DNA of 22,331 bases. Origin: a virus. Positions 16,365-22,331 of this stretch are shown in pieces. A program made the position numbers and the translations under genes. The DNA lies in the IMG/VR virus record IMGVR_UViG_3300023104_000019, positions 1 to 22,331 of that record. One strand, 5' to 3'. How positions within the stretch are numbered: position 1 is the stretch's first letter; every line of letters starts with the position of its first letter. The notes under the pieces were generated by a model. The model was given only the letters and a program-made list of their open reading frames with translations, did not search any database and was not told where the DNA came from.

Positions 16365-17204
16365 ATGGCTAGAACAATAACAGAAATACAAAACCAAATT
16401 TTTGCAAAAATAGCTGGTGATCCTAAATTAACGGCATTGAATTCCGTGAGTAAAGTGGCTATTTATCGCTTATTTGTATTTGTGGTGGCTTATGCTTGTT
16501 GGCTGTTAGAAGTTATTTTCGATAGCCATGCAGCACAAATAGACAACGCTATTTTACAACAAAAAAGCGGAACTCCAAACTGGTATAAAAATAAAGCTTT
16601 GGCTTTTCAGTATGGATTTGATTTGTTGCCCGATAGTGATATATATGATAACACGGGCTATACGGATGAAGAAATTGAAGCTTCAAAAATCGTGAAATAT
16701 TGTTCGGTGAAAGAATCGCAGGAATCAAACCGATTAGTTATAAAAGTGGCGGGCGAATCAGGTGATGATTTGCAACCATTGGAAGGTGAAGAAAAAACGG
16801 CTTTTGATGCTTATTTACAAGAAATAAAATATGCAGGTGTTAAATTATTAGTTGTCAATAATCCCGCTGATAAACTACTGTTAAAAATGGAGGTTTATTA
16901 TGATGTTTTGGTATTAGACAATAATGGAACTAGCATCTTAAACGGTGATAAACCTGTCGAAAAAGCAATTCGGGCTTATATGAAAGCTTTGCCATTTAAC
17001 GGTGAGTTAGTATTGAATGATCTGATTGGTTATTTGCGATTAGTACCAGGAGTAAAAAACGTCCATATTAATACAGCCAGTGCCAGTGCTTATGATAATG
17101 TTACGAGCGCTTTTTTAGACTATGTGGGAATTTATGTTCGCACTATTCCAAGCGCTGGATATTTTGAAATAGAAACCTTTGAAAACGTGAGTTATGTGGT
17201 ATAA
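16365..17204 (+). CDS. Baseplate assembly protein J-like
   Basis: This 279-residue protein begins MARTITEIQNQIFAKIAGDP, the typical N-terminus of J-like baseplate wedges. It continues with VSKVAIYRLFVFVVAYACWLLEVIFDSHAAQIDNAILQQKSGT, the helical region that packs at the wedge core. The middle is rich in strand (NRLVIKVAGESGDD, YYDVLVLDNNGTSIL), and the C-terminus contains VEKAIRAYMKALPFNGELVLNDLIGYLRLVPGVKNVHINTASASAY, a region where J-like proteins have an 'i..y.......g....s.l...i....gV..v' motif. It overlaps the I-like gene by 11 bp. J, I and W form the wedge of the contractile baseplate. Confidence 0.82.
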   Translation: MARTITEIQNQIFAKIAGDPKLTALNSVSKVAIYRLFVFVVAYACWLLEVIFDSHAAQIDNAILQQKSGTPNWYKNKALAFQYGFDLLPDSDIYDNTGYTDEEIEASKIVKYCSVKESQESNRLVIKVAGESGDDLQPLEGEEKTAFDAYLQEIKYAGVKLLVVNNPADKLLLKMEVYYDVLVLDNNGTSILNGDKPVEKAIRAYMKALPFNGELVLNDLIGYLRLVPGVKNVHINTASASAYDNVTSAFLDYVGIYVRTIPSAGYFEIETFENVSYVV

Positions 17205-17658
17205 AGTGAACTGGAACAAGCTCGTTATTTTGCTTTTGCCCACCTTTTTGCGAAAGCCTGTTCTTGTACGTTATCTGCAAGCTTTGGTTTCTCCTATTGG
17301 GACTTTGCATTATAAATGGCTGCAAAAGCGGGATGCCGATTGGTACAAGCTCAATCATACAGGACAAGTTTGTTATTTACGAAAGGTTCTTAATGATGCT
17401 CTGGATGTTTCAGACAGACGAATTTACATTGATGAAGGAAATTCATTCCCTCGAAAATACATCTACACAAGAGCCGAAAACAAGCCTCATTTTTTAGGTA
17501 AGATGTTTATTTATCGGAATGAGGAATATACAAATACGGGTGCTGACTTTATTGTTTTTGTACCACCTGAGATTATAAATACTAAGATTCACGAATTGAA
17601 ATATTTAATTGAATATTACAAATTAGCTTCAAAACGCTATCAAATACGACCGATATGA
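17194..17658 (+). CDS. Baseplate/tail-tip protein I-like
   Basis: This 154-residue protein overlaps the 3' end of the J-like gene by 11 bp and the start of the fibre gene by 4 bp. Its N-terminus (NWNKLVILLLPTFLRKPVLVRYLQALVSPI) has the 'LLP..LR......yl.al..pi..l...w' pattern of tail-protein I-like wedge proteins in Bacteroidota Mu-like phages. The remaining region is beta-rich (DRRIYIDEGNSFPRKYIYTRAE) and ends in a helix rich in Lys/Tyr (TKIHELKYLIEYYKLASKRYQI). In P2-like baseplates gpI binds J and anchors the fibres. The evidence is position plus the N-terminal pattern. Confidence 0.7.
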   Translation: MWYKVNWNKLVILLLPTFLRKPVLVRYLQALVSPIGTLHYKWLQKRDADWYKLNHTGQVCYLRKVLNDALDVSDRRIYIDEGNSFPRKYIYTRAENKPHFLGKMFIYRNEEYTNTGADFIVFVPPEIINTKIHELKYLIEYYKLASKRYQIRPI

Positions 17659-18461
17659 ATACTATTAATTTTAACCAAAGTATTGGTTTTCCTTTAGAAA
17701 CGGAGATTTTGGATTTTATGCAAAAGTCATATTCGCTTTTCAATGCTTTTGGAGCTGTAGCGGGTGATTTTTCTATAATTAAAGGTTGTGAAGTTTCGGG
17801 TGGAGCAGTAAACGATGGCGTCGTTTACATCAACGGTGAACTATTGCCATTTAAAGGCGCACCAATTGACGCTAATGTTGTAATTATTGAAGAAAAACAG
17901 GCTTTAGAATTTGAAGATACCATTTCCCGAGACGTAACATTTACAAGATATGCCACTTTTGGTGGTGGATCAGTACAATGGGCGTGGTCAACTTTTAAAC
18001 GTGGAATGCCTACCATTGATATTGCATCAGCTTTAGCGGGAAAAGCAAGCGAAACTGCTTTGAGCAATCTGGCTAATACCGTCACCACGATGTTAAATAA
18101 ATTGAACACAATCGATGAACATGCCAAAGTACAAGTTAACACCGATTGGAACGCAACATCTGGGAAAGCTCAACTTCTAAATAAACCCGATTATTCGAGT
18201 CCTTACCTTTATAAAGGGTATGCAGTTATTGGAGATATTGTGACAACAGACATGCTAAGAACTATAAATTTTCCGAATGTTGGGACGAATAATTACATGG
18301 TTTTAGGAAGTTTAAGATGTAATACTTCAGATTGGAATAAAGACAATGACGTTTTCTGGACTTGGAGAAATCAAGGAAATACTTCTTTCGATTTAATTTT
18401 AAGAGAAATAACTGGTAACGTTCAAGATTTAACTTTTTACTACATATTAATACCACTATAA
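17655..18461 (+). CDS. Tail fibre protein (proximal)
   Basis: This 268-residue fibre starts with a baseplate-attachment-like N-terminus (MNTINFNQSIGFPLETEILDFMQKSYSLFNAFGAVAGDFSIIKGCEVSGGAVNDGVVYINGELLPF). This resembles the first domain of fibre proteins of Mu-like phages, which have a repeated 'G..f..........g......i.G......dg..yi.gel' pattern. A helical section (ALAGKASETALSNLANTVTTMLNKLNTIDEHAKVQVNTDW) probably forms a trimeric coiled coil. The C-terminus is beta-rich (GTNNYMVLGSLRCNTSDW...YILIPL) and may be a receptor-binding or hub domain. No chaperone domain is visible. The role is based on location after baseplate genes and domain order. Confidence 0.72.
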   Translation: MNTINFNQSIGFPLETEILDFMQKSYSLFNAFGAVAGDFSIIKGCEVSGGAVNDGVVYINGELLPFKGAPIDANVVIIEEKQALEFEDTISRDVTFTRYATFGGGSVQWAWSTFKRGMPTIDIASALAGKASETALSNLANTVTTMLNKLNTIDEHAKVQVNTDWNATSGKAQLLNKPDYSSPYLYKGYAVIGDIVTTDMLRTINFPNVGTNNYMVLGSLRCNTSDWNKDNDVFWTWRNQGNTSFDLILREITGNVQDLTFYYILIPL

Positions 18462-18462
18462 C

Positions 18463-19425
18463 ATGGCAGTTACAGACAAATCAATAATAAAAAACTGGTT
18501 TAAAAACGGTTTGATTCCTTTTCAAGAACACTTTTGGAATTGGATTGATAGTTTTAGACACATGAACGATAAAATTCCTTTGGCTGATGTTGAGGGAATT
18601 GATGATGCTCTGAATAGTAAGGCCAGTGCAACGGTTTTAAATCAACACATCACAGCAAATGATGCACATCAGGCATTGTTTGAATTAAAGCAAAGTTTAA
18701 TCGAAAAAGGTCAAGCAAATGGATACGTTCCATTAAATGAAATCATAAAGATTTCATCTCAATTTTTGGATATTGTTGACGATCTTATTACTGGCGGTTC
18801 TACGGCTTTGGCATCTGCTGAAACCGTTAAAACTTTGAAAGGTCAAATAGATGCCATAAACTTGATTTTAACCTCTGATGATGTTAATCTTGACACCGTT
18901 CAGGAGCTTGTAGATGCAATTAAAGAAGTTGAAACTTCATTGCAAACTATCTTGGTGAACGACCTGACCACGGGCGGAACTACCAAAGCTCTTACTGCTG
19001 AAATGGGTAAGAGTTTAAAGGCTTTGATTGATGCTTTGGGAACTAATAAGGTTGACAAAGTTGCGGGTGAAAGATTGATTAGTGCAGCGGAACAGTTGCA
19101 GTTATCTAATTTGTCAATTGATTTATCGGGTAAACAAGATATTGCCAATCAAATTGAGGTGAATGTTTCGCAAAATGCACAGGCATCGTGGCACGGTAAA
19201 ACCGTTTTTTTTACGGCTAATGTTACTATAACAATACCAGCAGCGGGCTTGCCAACTGGATACACCTTCGAAGGTGTTACACCTCCTAGTTGTAGTGTCA
19301 CATGGGCGATTATTGCGCCAAAGGTTTGGGCTTTGGGTTCACCCGCTGCCACACCCGAAAAAAGCATTTTTACACTAATGCAGCTAATGAGTAATAGTAA
19401 TAATATTTATTTATTTGGATTGTAA
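18463..19425 (+). CDS. Tail fibre / short shaft protein
   Basis: This 320-residue protein has long trimeric coiled-coil-like and spacer segments typical of tail fibres. These include KASATVLNQHITANDAHQALFELKQSLIEKG, a TGGSTALASAETVKTLKGQIDAI segment (about residues 109-130), and DLTTGGTTKALTAEMGKSLKALIDALG further on. Similar 'GG..ALSAE.GK.L' phrases recur in fibres of Bacteroidota phages and likely form a shaft. The C-terminal ~100 residues are beta-rich, with a Thr/Pro-rich section (ANVTITIPAAGLPTGYTFEGVTPPSCSVTWAII). It follows the first fibre gene at once and its stop is one base before the next start codon, suggesting the LRR protein is made together with it. Confidence 0.7.
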   Translation: MAVTDKSIIKNWFKNGLIPFQEHFWNWIDSFRHMNDKIPLADVEGIDDALNSKASATVLNQHITANDAHQALFELKQSLIEKGQANGYVPLNEIIKISSQFLDIVDDLITGGSTALASAETVKTLKGQIDAINLILTSDDVNLDTVQELVDAIKEVETSLQTILVNDLTTGGTTKALTAEMGKSLKALIDALGTNKVDKVAGERLISAAEQLQLSNLSIDLSGKQDIANQIEVNVSQNAQASWHGKTVFFTANVTITIPAAGLPTGYTFEGVTPPSCSVTWAIIAPKVWALGSPAATPEKSIFTLMQLMSNSNNIYLFGL

Positions 19426-19426
19426 A

Positions 19427-20944
19427 ATGGGATTGCAAAAAACAGTTTTCGGAATGACCAAAGCAAAGCCTAACACGTTTATTGGCGGTGTATCTGGAAC
19501 AATAAATACACCTGCTTTGGTGGCCGCAAGATTGGGGATTTCAGTTTCGAGAATTAAGGCTTTTTCCGTAATAGGTAGTAATATTCAATTTGCGGTTACT
19601 GGTGGCAGTTATACTATAGCTGCAAATGCTTTTTCAGGTAATGCAAATTTGACTTACTACACAGAGAATTCTAACTTGGTTACAGCAATCGCTTCTTCAG
19701 CTTTTAATGACTGTGTTAAGTTAACAAGTATTGATTTATCTAATTGTACAAGCATAGGAATACAAGCTTTTATCAATTGTGTATTATTAAATAATATTGG
19801 TAGCTTTAATTCTTGTTTAACAATAGCTACAAATGCTTTTAACAATTGTCAATCTTTAGCAGGAAATATAACTCTTCCTGTGTGTACCTCACTTAATGGA
19901 GATAGTGTTTTTAGAGATTGTAAATTAATAACATCTTTTACCGCTAATAGTTTAACTACTATGACAGGTAATAATATGTTTACAGGTTGTACAATGTTTA
20001 CTTCTTTTACTGCTACTAGTTTGACTGTAATAAATGGATTTTCACAATTCTTTAACTTAACTAATTTAACAACTGTAAATGCTCCCTTATTAGTTCTAAC
20101 AAGTTCTAACACTTCGGTTTTTATAAATTGCATAAATTTAGAAAATTTAATAATTGGAAAGCCTACTTCAATAGGTAGTACAGTTTTTTCGGGCTGTGCT
20201 AAGTTAACAAGTATTGATTTATCTAATTGCACAAGTATAGCTATTCAGGCTTTTATAAATTGTGTGTTATTAAGTAATATTGGTAGCTTTAATTCTTGTT
20301 TAACAATAGGGGTAAATGCTTTTAACAATTGTCAATCTTTAGCAGGAAACATAACACTTCCTGTGTGTACCTCACTTAATGGGGATAGTATTTTTAGAGG
20401 TTGTAAATTAATAACATCTTTTACGGCTAATAGTTTAACGACTATATCAGGTAATAATATGTTTCTTGAATGCTTAATGTTTAGTTCGTTTACCGCTACT
20501 AGTTTGACTACGATAAATGGGATTTCGACATTCAGAAATTTAACTAATTTAACAACTGTAAATGCTCCTTTATTGGTTTTAACAAGTTCTAATACAACTA
20601 TTTTTGGCGGGTGTGTAAATTTAGAAACGTTAATAATTGGAAAGCCTACTTCTTTGGGAACAGCTGCTTTTGATGCTTGTTCAAAAATTACAACAATAGA
20701 TTTATCTAATTGTACGTCATTATTAAACCTATCTCTAAGGGGATGTTCTATGTTAAATTCTATATATGCTCCGATTCTTAACACATTAGGTTTAACGTCG
20801 GGCGATGATGGTGTTTTTGGAGTTATAAAAATAGGTATTACGATTACAGTACCAACAGCTTTACAAACAGTTAATTCAGGTGCACCTGATGGCGATTTAC
20901 TCTATGCAGCAACTTCAAGAGGAGCAACAATAGTTTATATATAA
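19427..20944 (+). CDS. Leucine-rich-repeat (BspA-like) tail protein, probable receptor-binding tip
   Basis: This 505-residue protein has many short repeats of BspA/LRR_5 type (e.g. LTSIDLSNCTSIGIQAFINC, SFTANSLTTMTGNNMF, LTTVNAPLLVL) with regular hydrophobic and Asn/Cys positions, forming a solenoid. An internal tandem unit of 161 residues (483 bp) occurs twice, with a third partial copy. The ATG at 19427-19429 is preferred; a TTG at 19415 lies upstream but inside the previous gene. There is no signal peptide, so it is not a bacterial surface BspA. Location after the fibres makes it a likely receptor-binding protein. The C-terminal segment has strand-rich sequence ending GDLLYAATSRGATIVYI. 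Confidence 0.72.
   Translation: MGLQKTVFGMTKAKPNTFIGGVSGTINTPALVAARLGISVSRIKAFSVIGSNIQFAVTGGSYTIAANAFSGNANLTYYTENSNLVTAIASSAFNDCVKLTSIDLSNCTSIGIQAFINCVLLNNIGSFNSCLTIATNAFNNCQSLAGNITLPVCTSLNGDSVFRDCKLITSFTANSLTTMTGNNMFTGCTMFTSFTATSLTVINGFSQFFNLTNLTTVNAPLLVLTSSNTSVFINCINLENLIIGKPTSIGSTVFSGCAKLTSIDLSNCTSIAIQAFINCVLLSNIGSFNSCLTIGVNAFNNCQSLAGNITLPVCTSLNGDSIFRGCKLITSFTANSLTTISGNNMFLECLMFSSFTATSLTTINGISTFRNLTNLTTVNAPLLVLTSSNTTIFGGCVNLETLIIGKPTSLGTAAFDACSKITTIDLSNCTSLLNLSLRGCSMLNSIYAPILNTLGLTSGDDGVFGVIKIGITITVPTALQTVNSGAPDGDLLYAATSRGATIVYI
19685..20650 (+). repeat. Two 483-bp tandem repeat units inside the LRR gene
   Basis: The codons around AAG-TTA-ACA-AGT-ATT-GAT-TTA at 19718 recur at 20201 and, more diverged, at 20684, always 483 bp apart. 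The two full units share long identical blocks (e.g. around TTGGTAGCTTTAATTCTTG and CTGTAAATGCTCC) interrupted by short divergent patches. A third partial unit begins near 20651. Unit borders are approximate, set by the offset and the matching blocks. Confidence 0.85.
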
Positions 20945-20960
20945 TTAAAATCAAATATTT

Positions 20961-21308
20961 ATGATAAAATCAAATATTGAGCTCAATTATGATGCTCGAC
21001 ACGGTGAAAAACACGCCGTTATAGAAATAGAAATAAGTACCTGGTCAACTAATCAAGCAGGTGTTATTTATACCGTAAATGATTATGCAGTTGGCGAAAA
21101 TGAAGCTAAACAGTTAATCAACTCCAAAGATGTTTTTTACACCTCAGAGCAAATTAATCAAATGGATGAACTTATTAGTTCTACAACTGATTTCACAGGA
21201 TTGTCAAGAACTGAAATTGAATGGCTAAAGGTTAAAAAAGCCTTGCTTTATGTCACACAGCAAGCTCCTGTATATGGTTCAATCGCTGCTAACTGGATTG
21301 AAGTATGA
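20961..21308 (+). CDS. Hypothetical small protein after the tail tip
   Basis: This 115-residue protein has no signal or membrane segment and no recognised family. It starts 16 bp after the LRR gene and overlaps the next start codon by 4 bp (ATGA), so it probably belongs to the same late operon. The sequence opens with a beta-rich stretch (SNIELNYDARHGEKHAVIEIEISTWSTNQAGVIYTVNDYAV) and ends with helix (TEIEWLKVKKALLYVTQQAPVYGS). Position after the tip protein suggests a fibre-assembly, tail-tip or accessory factor, but I do not assign one. Confidence 0.6.
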   Translation: MIKSNIELNYDARHGEKHAVIEIEISTWSTNQAGVIYTVNDYAVGENEAKQLINSKDVFYTSEQINQMDELISSTTDFTGLSRTEIEWLKVKKALLYVTQQAPVYGSIAANWIEV

Positions 21309-21703
21309 TAAAGCTATTTATAGAATTATTGTTTTTAGTTGTAGCAATATTGGTATTTCCGTTGCTGTTTGTGGTTGGTTTTGTCTATACTTTTTTCAAG
21401 CATATTTGGAAATTCGATTATTCAATTTCGAAACAACTTTTACCCATAGTTAGAAGTATAAGCCTATTGCTTGACGGTTTAGCCAATGCAGGAGCGGGCG
21501 AACTATTGAATGATGTGTACAAAGTCAACGGTAACATCAAATACGGCAAATGGTATCAAACTATTTCAGCAGTTACGGGATTGTTGCTTTTGCATGTTAA
21601 GGACACGAAGTTAAGGCGGTTCCTGGACAAAGTTTTAGGAACTGATCATTGCGTCGAGGCGATAAGTAAAGAAGATTTATTCTTTTACGAAAAATTTAAG
21701 TAA
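21305..21703 (+). CDS. Small membrane-anchored hypothetical protein
   Basis: The 132 residues begin with a strongly hydrophobic N-terminal segment (about residues 2-33, MIKLFIELLFLVVAILVFPLLFVVGFVYTFF), followed by basic/aromatic residues and a soluble, helical C-terminal ~95 residues. It is a predicted single-pass membrane protein (a signal anchor); a second weak hydrophobic stretch occurs near TISAVTGLLLLHV. The start overlaps the previous gene's end by 4 bp. It is the final apparent phage gene before the structured region. Function unknown; a lysis or superinfection-related membrane role is possible but not supported by any motif. Confidence 0.6.
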   Translation: MIKLFIELLFLVVAILVFPLLFVVGFVYTFFKHIWKFDYSISKQLLPIVRSISLLLDGLANAGAGELLNDVYKVNGNIKYGKWYQTISAVTGLLLLHVKDTKLRRFLDKVLGTDHCVEAISKEDLFFYEKFK

Positions 21704-21876
21704 TGTTTCCAGGAGGCGGGAAAAAAAATAGTCCTCCAACATTTAAAAAAAACTCTCACATCCTTTTTAAACTGACGCATCCAAGGTCGTCGGAGGACTT
21801 AATTATTAAGTCTTCTGATGGTCTTGGATGTGTTTTTTGTTGTAAGGATGTGAGAAGTGCAAATATAGAATATTAA
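21703..21876 (+). CDS. Possible 57-codon ORF overlapping the hairpin region
   Basis: An ATG at 21703-21705 overlaps the TAA of the preceding gene (TAATG), and the frame stays open to a TAA at 21874-21876, reading MFPGGGKKNSPPTF and ending CCKDVRSANIEY. It contains the complete nested hairpin, so its codons are constrained by the stem. The TAATG coupling favours a real gene. The hairpin, the unusual composition (CVFCC, GGGKK) and the lack of any familiar pattern favour a chance ORF. Only the frame itself is seen in the sequence. Confidence 0.25.
   Translation: MFPGGGKKNSPPTFKKNSHILFKLTHPRSSEDLIIKSSDGLGCVFCCKDVRSANIEY
21754..21855 (+). ncRNA. Nested structured RNA / extended hairpin
   Basis: A 12-bp perfect outer stem (21754-21765 with 21844-21855) encloses a continuous 29-bp inner stem (21774-21802 with 21806-21834) with a 3-base loop. 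The inner stem contains seven G-U pairs, at bases 21774, 21777, 21786, 21787, 21789, 21792 and 21795, and no mismatches when read as plus-strand RNA. These positions would be A-C mismatches on the minus strand, so the plus-strand transcript is the likely functional molecule. The region lies between the last phage gene and the TS-like gene. Whether it is a non-coding RNA, a terminator or an attenuator is not known. Confidence 0.6.
21774..21838 (+). terminator. Candidate intrinsic terminator of the late operon
   Basis: The 29-bp inner stem ends with a T-run (21833-21838, TTTTTT, two of whose bases are in the stem), like an oversized Rho-independent terminator. It is at the right place, 71 bp downstream of the last late gene stop. 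The extra 12-bp outer stem and the upstream AGTCCTCC segment are not explained by a simple terminator. Confidence 0.55.
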
Positions 21877-21888
21877 TTAAAAAATGAA

Positions 21889-22331
21889 ATGAATAAATAC
21901 CACCAAATTTTAAATAAAATAACCACTAAAGGAAAGGTTCAAAAGAATAAAAAAGGAAATATAACTTATTTGCTCAATCAAGAACTCCAAATGAAACCAA
22001 TAGATCTATTGGAGTTATTCGAGGGACACGCTGTAGCTAAAAAGAAGCTCAAGGATGAATTGTTATTGTTTATGCAGGGCGAACGCTCAACTGAGGCTTA
22101 TCGTGAAATAGGCGTCACGTGGTGGGATTATTGCGGTCCTATTTTAGTGAATAGTTACCCAACGTACTTCGAACAGCTGCCAAAGCTTATTGAGAAGATC
22201 AATAAAGAGAAACGACCGTCAAAGAATTATGTTTTATTTCTAGGCTCTAATAACACCGAGAGCAACCAACAGCCGTGTCTTAGCTTAATTCAGTTCCAGA
22301 TAGAAAAAGGAAAGGTAGTTATTAGCGCATA
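21889..22331 (+). CDS. Divergent thymidylate synthase-like protein, N-terminal part (runs off window)
   Basis: 147 codons are visible, with no stop. The order matches thymidylate synthase: MNKYHQILNKITTKG start, DELLLFMQG (Glu57, aligned with E. coli TS Glu58), VTWWDYCGP (Trp79-Asp80, aligned with Trp80-Asp81), and QQPCLSLIQF (Pro129-Cys130), the conserved Pro-Cys context of the catalytic nucleophile. However, the phosphate-binding arginine of the 'DRTGT' loop is Lys (KNKKGNIT), and the Arg-Arg pair before the nucleophile is SKNYV. The YGKQWR segment is also absent. Together these mean dUMP binding is altered or lost. It may be a dUMP/dCMP hydroxymethylase-like modifier, an effector, or a degraded TS. 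The start at 21889 is the first usable ATG; an ATG at 21884 stops after one codon. Confidence 0.7.
   Translation, partial: MNKYHQILNKITTKGKVQKNKKGNITYLLNQELQMKPIDLLELFEGHAVAKKKLKDELLLFMQGERSTEAYREIGVTWWDYCGPILVNSYPTYFEQLPKLIEKINKEKRPSKNYVLFLGSNNTESNQQPCLSLIQFQIEKGKVVISA

Follow-up and report, generated by a model that had tools for sequence, protein, structure and literature searches.

The best comparison for a phage protein mounted at the tip of a fibre is gp38 of phages T2, S16 and PP01. According to the accessible text of PMC12892980, gp38 is a separate gene product at the fibre tip that carries a variable receptor head, made of polyglycine helices and hypervariable loops, and its N-terminus docks on gp37 and has to match it; T2 lacking gp38 is rescued by PP01 gp38 only once the N-terminal 113 residues of the latter are those of T2. 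Two reports bring LRR-like or BspA-type repeats into phage genomes. A vibriophage LRR-like protein is, like the protein studied here, encoded in the tail module and variable among genomes, but its HHpred probability is 10% and the accessible part of its description mentions neither LRR_5 nor a docking pair (PMC10945359). ORF 287 of the Vibrio jumbo phage pir03 is entered as DUF285 'BspA family' and is thus an example of BspA-type repeats in a phage genome; it differs in being a table entry for which the accessible text gives no tail location or adaptor (PMC7765460). In the open-access literature covered, with most subscription journals outside its scope, we found no LRR_5 tip described together with a docking pair of the fibre.

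Here we analyse a virus record of 22,331 bp, taken in full and called the window below, in which a gene for an LRR_5 protein follows the fibre genes. We consider it likely that this protein is a separate distal adhesin, which would be present in the virion, would dock on the preceding fibre protein, fib2, and would bind a host ligand through a capped LRR solenoid, the head being exchangeable. Family profiles find portal, terminase and sheath families encoded in the window, and a tape-measure match below cut-off; the window comes from a phage of the contractile-tail type that, by comparison of its baseplate anchor protein, appears to be a relative of Winoviridae. Among isolates the best match is Flavobacterium phage fF4, classified under Winoviridae, whose baseplate anchor is 56% identical over 279 aa; the same single protein is 37% identical in lotta8 and 33% in Peternella, a Winoviridae isolate that the accessible text of PMC8776804 describes as Mu-like and myoviridal. 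The order of baseplate and fibre genes is the same in fF4, but the gene at its fibre end is non-LRR by sequence. The annotation of the stretches examined of the Winoviridae isolates lotta8, pippi8, Peternella and FPSV contains no LRR product. Because matches to the tip family concentrate in our sample of the genus, the host of the window phage is probably a Flavobacterium.

The features of the fibre end are collected in Table 1, where the labels bpJ, P2I, fib1 and fib2 were assigned by gene position. As the sequence-only reading had it, the tip gene comes after fibre genes, two fibre-like genes preceding it. Its ATG lies one base past the fib2 stop, with an alternative start, TTG, at 19415. 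Among the loci listed, relatives usually have the order baseplate, fib1, fib2 and then a varied end gene, and by synteny across these loci the tip gene is the end of a conserved baseplate-fibre operon.

Table 1. Features at the fibre end of the window
Feature	Position	Strand	Basis or remark
bpJ, baseplate-type protein, search anchor	16365..17204	+	
P2I, baseplate-type protein	17194..17658	+	syntenic in relatives
fib1, fibre-like protein	17655..18461	+	syntenic in relatives
fib2, adaptor-bearing fibre protein	18463..19425	+	weak sub-threshold match to Phage_fiber_rpt; PHROG tail fiber at E 7.9e-8
adaptor (socket) domain, fib2 residues 219-315	19117..19407	+	profile, model, fold search
LRR_5 fibre-tip gene, 505 aa	19427..20944	+	open frame, Pfam
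docking peptide, residues 1-12, MGLQKTVFGMTK	19427..19462	+	motif common to genes after the fib2 C-terminal domain
N-cap, about residues 13-64, NTFIGGVS..., ...NTFIGGVSGTINTPAL...	19463..19618	+	profile and model pLDDT
about 16 LRR_5 repeats of 22-24 residues each	19619..20752	+	
duplicated unit, copy A, 161 codons, seven repeats	19682..20164	+	
duplicated unit, copy B	20165..20647	+	
C-cap, residues 443-505	20753..20941	+	present in 16/17 tips examined
o115, small gene 3' of the tip gene	20961..21308	+	relatives in L090, L118, L119
o132, small gene 3' of o115	21305..21703	+	relative in L118 (59%)

Two further features lie 3' of the tail genes. The intergenic stretch 21705-21885, after the last tail gene, forms a very long hairpin (MFE -69.1 kcal/mol, z -10) that has no Rfam match and whose 5' block recurs 3' of tail genes in more than 20 fetched loci. 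An alignment of 15 rows shows GTCCTCC pairing with GGAGGAC, one pair being AU in nine rows and GC in five, and by eye GGAGGAC can alternatively pair with the GTCTTC that follows; read by eye, the stretch resembles a conserved, switch-like element belonging to this group of phages. The ORF at 21892-22331, cut by the contig end, has a weak thymidylate-synthase match. Its relatives (up to 84-89% identical) end the tail region in L012, L032, L089 and others, and in the loci listed they are often found near a DNA-methyltransferase-like gene. In phage Mu the DNA-modification gene mom occupies a comparable place, and by analogy the 3' end of the tail region may be a place for DNA-modification genes.

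That the tip protein is a BspA-like LRR protein is borne out by a match to LRR_5 (PF13306) with an E-value of 1.3e-56 and 190.3 bits against a cut-off of 27.7. Proteins of this kind are found mostly on the surface of bacteria. Its best match by sequence among solved structures is 4fs7, an LRR protein of Bacteroides ovatus (E 2.9e-20), and the best fold matches of its structure model are the LRR proteins 4fs7, 4cp6 and 4gt6, at low TM-scores. The model is moderate (mean pLDDT 60.5; better over residues 11-120, with the N-cap region at 71-87), and because of this low confidence it was not used for claims at the level of residues. Pfam also gives a weak, sub-threshold match to a fimbrial lectin (E 2.6e-4), likely an artefact of the repeats. 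The protein had also been read as having no signal peptide, and by hydropathy, the only measure applied, residues 1-40 hold no strongly hydrophobic stretch (best 12-residue mean 1.14); NCBIfam gives no match to a cell-surface anchor or sorting domain.

As the query of a scan of viral contigs, the LRR protein gave five pattern matches and no confirmed relative, and the baseplate gene was therefore taken as the search anchor. By tblastn it matched ten records of a phage collection with identities of 24-31%, for the most part human faecal contigs without annotation, which were set aside because LRR_5 repeats match one another without implying a shared tip; tblastn with one member of the tip family and two adaptor domains found no match in 50,697 phage records. 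The baseplate anchor yielded 3 loci first and then 40 genome and 44 viral loci, some records being in both sets, and among these 84 only L052 and L087 carry relatives of the window LRR protein. A different LRR-like repeat is found in the Tenacibaculum-type loci L020, L083, L025 and L023, the protein of L083 matching LRR_4 just below cut-off (E 2.4e-5), and the proteins of L022, L080 and L081 have a similar N-terminus, the repeat being absent.

By alignment the tips of the window, L052 and L087 have homologous N-termini, and a scan with this segment led to L089, L090, L093, L094 and L095, in each of which the match lies immediately 3' of a fibre-type gene. About 60 N-terminal residues are common to tips of different phages with differing C-terminal parts, and a profile of residues 1-62 finds this N-cap in 17 tip proteins. 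It matches 14 of the 199 genomes sampled from the genus Flavobacterium, nine of them strongly; the other five (E 1e-4 to 7e-4, in short loci without an ORF matching the tail proteins of the window) we take to be chance. The family-wide sample gave one match in 299 genomes and the phylum-wide sample two in 395, both already among the genus matches. Members of the family are built of the docking peptide or a close variant, the N-cap, about 3 to 16 repeats depending on length, and the C-cap, which is lacking from one of the 17 members, truncated at a contig end (the near-duplicates L095, L087 and L132 are left out of this count). The C-cap matches twice in each of L114, L119 and L120; in L114 and L120 so does the N-cap. 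Some members include fn3, Laminin_G_3 or DUF285 regions, the fn3 matches being mostly below the curated cut-off. Of nine tip-bearing genomes searched for the sheath, six gave a match, which lay either on a different contig from the tip locus or at a long distance from it.

We find that the start of the tip gene goes together with the end of the fibre gene before it. Used as a profile against the 2142 ORFs of the fetched loci, the last ~100 residues of fib2 detect 23 proteins. With the docking motif expressed as M-x(2-11)-[IVFYTL]-[FY]-[GS], the gene after the adaptor opens with the motif in 19 of the 23 cases as printed, or 20 using the window ATG, and 85 of the 2142 ORFs do so overall. The adaptor is found immediately upstream of 13 of the 17 N-cap tips; the exceptions are L052 and L087, where another gene separates the two, L120, whose tip has no adaptor directly upstream, and L116. 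In hold-out loci chosen on the adaptor alone, excluding weak adaptor matches and those already used, 21 of 25 next genes carry the docking motif versus 5 of 80 background genes; the expression was unchanged, and a match counted at whichever of several possible starts close to the stop, for test and background genes equally. Of the four misses, three come close to the motif (MGSLKKYYFAKSK, MSLNTFNFGKTR and MNLFQRQILGNKK); in the last, L143, the adaptor is followed by nothing but short fragments. Once near-duplicates are removed (L132 repeats L118), about 16 of 20 distinct peptides remain, read by eye. The heads carried on this dock include LRR_5, DUF285, Laminin_G_3 (a LamG lectin), DUF5074/DUF6923 (propeller-like) and others without assignment, as seen by Pfam in 10 of the 25 hold-out next genes and in members of the first set. 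The structure model of fib2 has a confident C-terminal domain from about residue 230 (block pLDDT 75-93), though as a whole it is poor (mean 59.9). For the adaptor, Foldseek ranks the capsid spike of a Pseudomonas phage first (E 3.3e-5; 96 columns at rmsd 2.2) and a baseplate protein of a Klebsiella phage second (E 5.7e-3). By co-occurrence, docking peptide and fib2 C-terminal domain form a coupled pair, and the two presumably dock physically.

Other arrangements of these genes were seen. Adaptor-tip pairs stand in tandem within one locus in L114, L115, L120, L127 and L128, with three such pairs in each of L115 and L128; their heads are of the DUF285, LRR_5 or lectin type. The Flavobacterium loci L114, L115, L117, L120 and L123-L125 combine adaptor-tip arrays with proteins of ~1940 aa (weak VWA) and ~2470 aa and with lysis-type genes, and in their genomes a sheath match lies elsewhere or is absent; these loci may represent an atypical prophage or a particle derived from a phage. 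One genome holds both an intact LRR tip gene without an adjoining adaptor (L116) and, elsewhere, an adaptor fibre followed by short fragments (L143). Among the loci listed, the N-terminal segment of fib2 is repeated within one locus in L014, L019, L063 and L065, suggesting duplicated fibre cassettes.

The 483-bp tandem duplication noted from the sequence is recovered by Tandem Repeats Finder (period 483, score 1441). Its description as near-identical over long blocks was fair but generous, since it suits a 300-nt block that is 88% identical, the remainder being about 77-81%. In codon phase, copies A and B share 407 of their 483 bases and, once translated, 132 of 161 residues, the unit comprising seven LRRs, and the lag-161 self-identity of the protein is 0.54, with a maximum of 0.14 among 1000 residue shuffles. 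The start of a third copy, 76% identical, lies at 20666-20715. Between copies A and B dN/dS is 0.32 (bootstrap 0.18-0.54). Amino-acid differences occur at 3 of 65 sites in strand segments and at 26 of 96 elsewhere (Fisher p 0.0003), whereas synonymous differences, at 8 of 65 and 18 of 96 sites, show no such avoidance (p 0.38); the strand segments were picked from the repeat motif, with boundaries of our own choice. This fits a strand face that is constrained in both halves, by ligand or by solenoid packing, and the pattern does not look like diversifying selection. A crude motif scan of the window and the fetched loci found no reverse transcriptase of a diversity-generating retroelement.

Does the protein serve the virion or the lysogen? 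The one-base spacing to fib2, the N-terminus common to other fibre-end genes and the lack of a signal-like stretch or of an NCBIfam sorting-domain match make it unlikely that the gene is moron cargo, a captured bacterial BspA-like surface protein serving the lysogen, although solved LRR_5 structures include bacterial cell-surface proteins, the L116 tip gene occurs on its own in a bacterial genome and the gene at the same position in some relatives has a signal-like leader. By eye, such a hydrophobic leader is present on the gene after fib2 in at least nine loci (L033, L040, L048, L057, L063, L064, L065, L073 and L074), which is unexpected for a virion protein, and because of these relatives gene position alone is weak evidence.

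A distal adhesin docked on fib2 is in line with the receptor-binding role that the sequence-only reading had thought likely. The conserved operon end, the coupling of dock and adaptor, the shared N-terminus and the adhesin- or lectin-type heads point the same way, and likely is as far as we would go. The adaptor/dock pair, the caps and the constraint on strand segments go beyond that reading. In the mechanism we propose, the first ~12 residues of the tip (the plug) would dock onto the C-terminal beta domain of fib2 (the socket), the N-cap and C-cap would seal a BspA-type LRR solenoid with about 16 repeats, and this solenoid would bind a host surface ligand, most likely via its strand face. In the window the solenoid would have been lengthened by the seven-repeat duplication, its strand segments then staying nearly constant. 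Given that the dock/adaptor pair is conserved and the head exchangeable, specificity could be changed by head swaps or by gain and loss of repeats. It is a more tentative proposal, towards which we lean less than away, that in Flavobacteriia phages and Flavobacterium phage-derived loci a common socket of ~100 residues and plug of ~12 residues mount interchangeable heads, including a capped LRR_5 solenoid that varies by in-frame duplication. If true, the LRR_5 head class would be a phage counterpart of LRR-based recognition receptors; LRR solenoids elsewhere are known mainly as recognition scaffolds, and little is known about the receptor-binding proteins of Bacteroidota phages. A recognisable socket and plug would allow the binding head to be found from sequence in any phage with the pair, and would offer a modular site for specificity studies, LRR solenoids included.

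What the tip would bind admits another answer, namely environmental glycans, mucus or particles instead of the host cell. The dock is common to LamG lectin-type heads, and the vibriophage with an LRR-like tail-module protein is discussed for mucus adherence in the accessible text of PMC10945359; we nevertheless hold this answer to be very unlikely, as the concentration in Flavobacterium (9 of 199 genomes in the genus versus 1 of 299 family-wide) fits host-linked recognition, even if it may only mark prophage habitat. The slightest chance goes to a fibre assembly factor, which would aid folding of the fibre end and then be released, as T4 gp38, such a chaperone for gp37 (accessible text of PMC12892980), since large variable repeat- or lectin-type heads on a constant dock are unexpected for a released chaperone and the smaller genes o115 and o132 would suit that role better, even though the tip gene comes directly after the distal fibre gene.

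Taken as a docked distal adhesin, the tip protein can be set beside two kinds of known protein. It shares its repeat family, and by sequence and fold search its fold, with the BspA-type LRR_5 proteins (4fs7, 4gt6, 4h09 and 6mlx); unlike them it has no apparent signal peptide or sorting domain, and it has a phage docking peptide, an N-cap, a C-cap and a gene in a tail operon. To gp38 of T2 and S16 it is taken to be not homologous, the folds being unrelated by description and a sequence relationship neither seen nor expected, and its head is predicted to be an LRR_5 solenoid on a dock of ~12 residues. Where gp38 is described as docking on gp37 (accessible text of PMC12892980), docking of the tip is suggested by co-occurrence. 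Both genes are nevertheless encoded directly downstream of a distal fibre gene, here at a spacing of one base, and by analogy the tip would, like gp38 of T2, S16 and PP01, be a separate gene product that places a variable receptor head at the end of the fibre.
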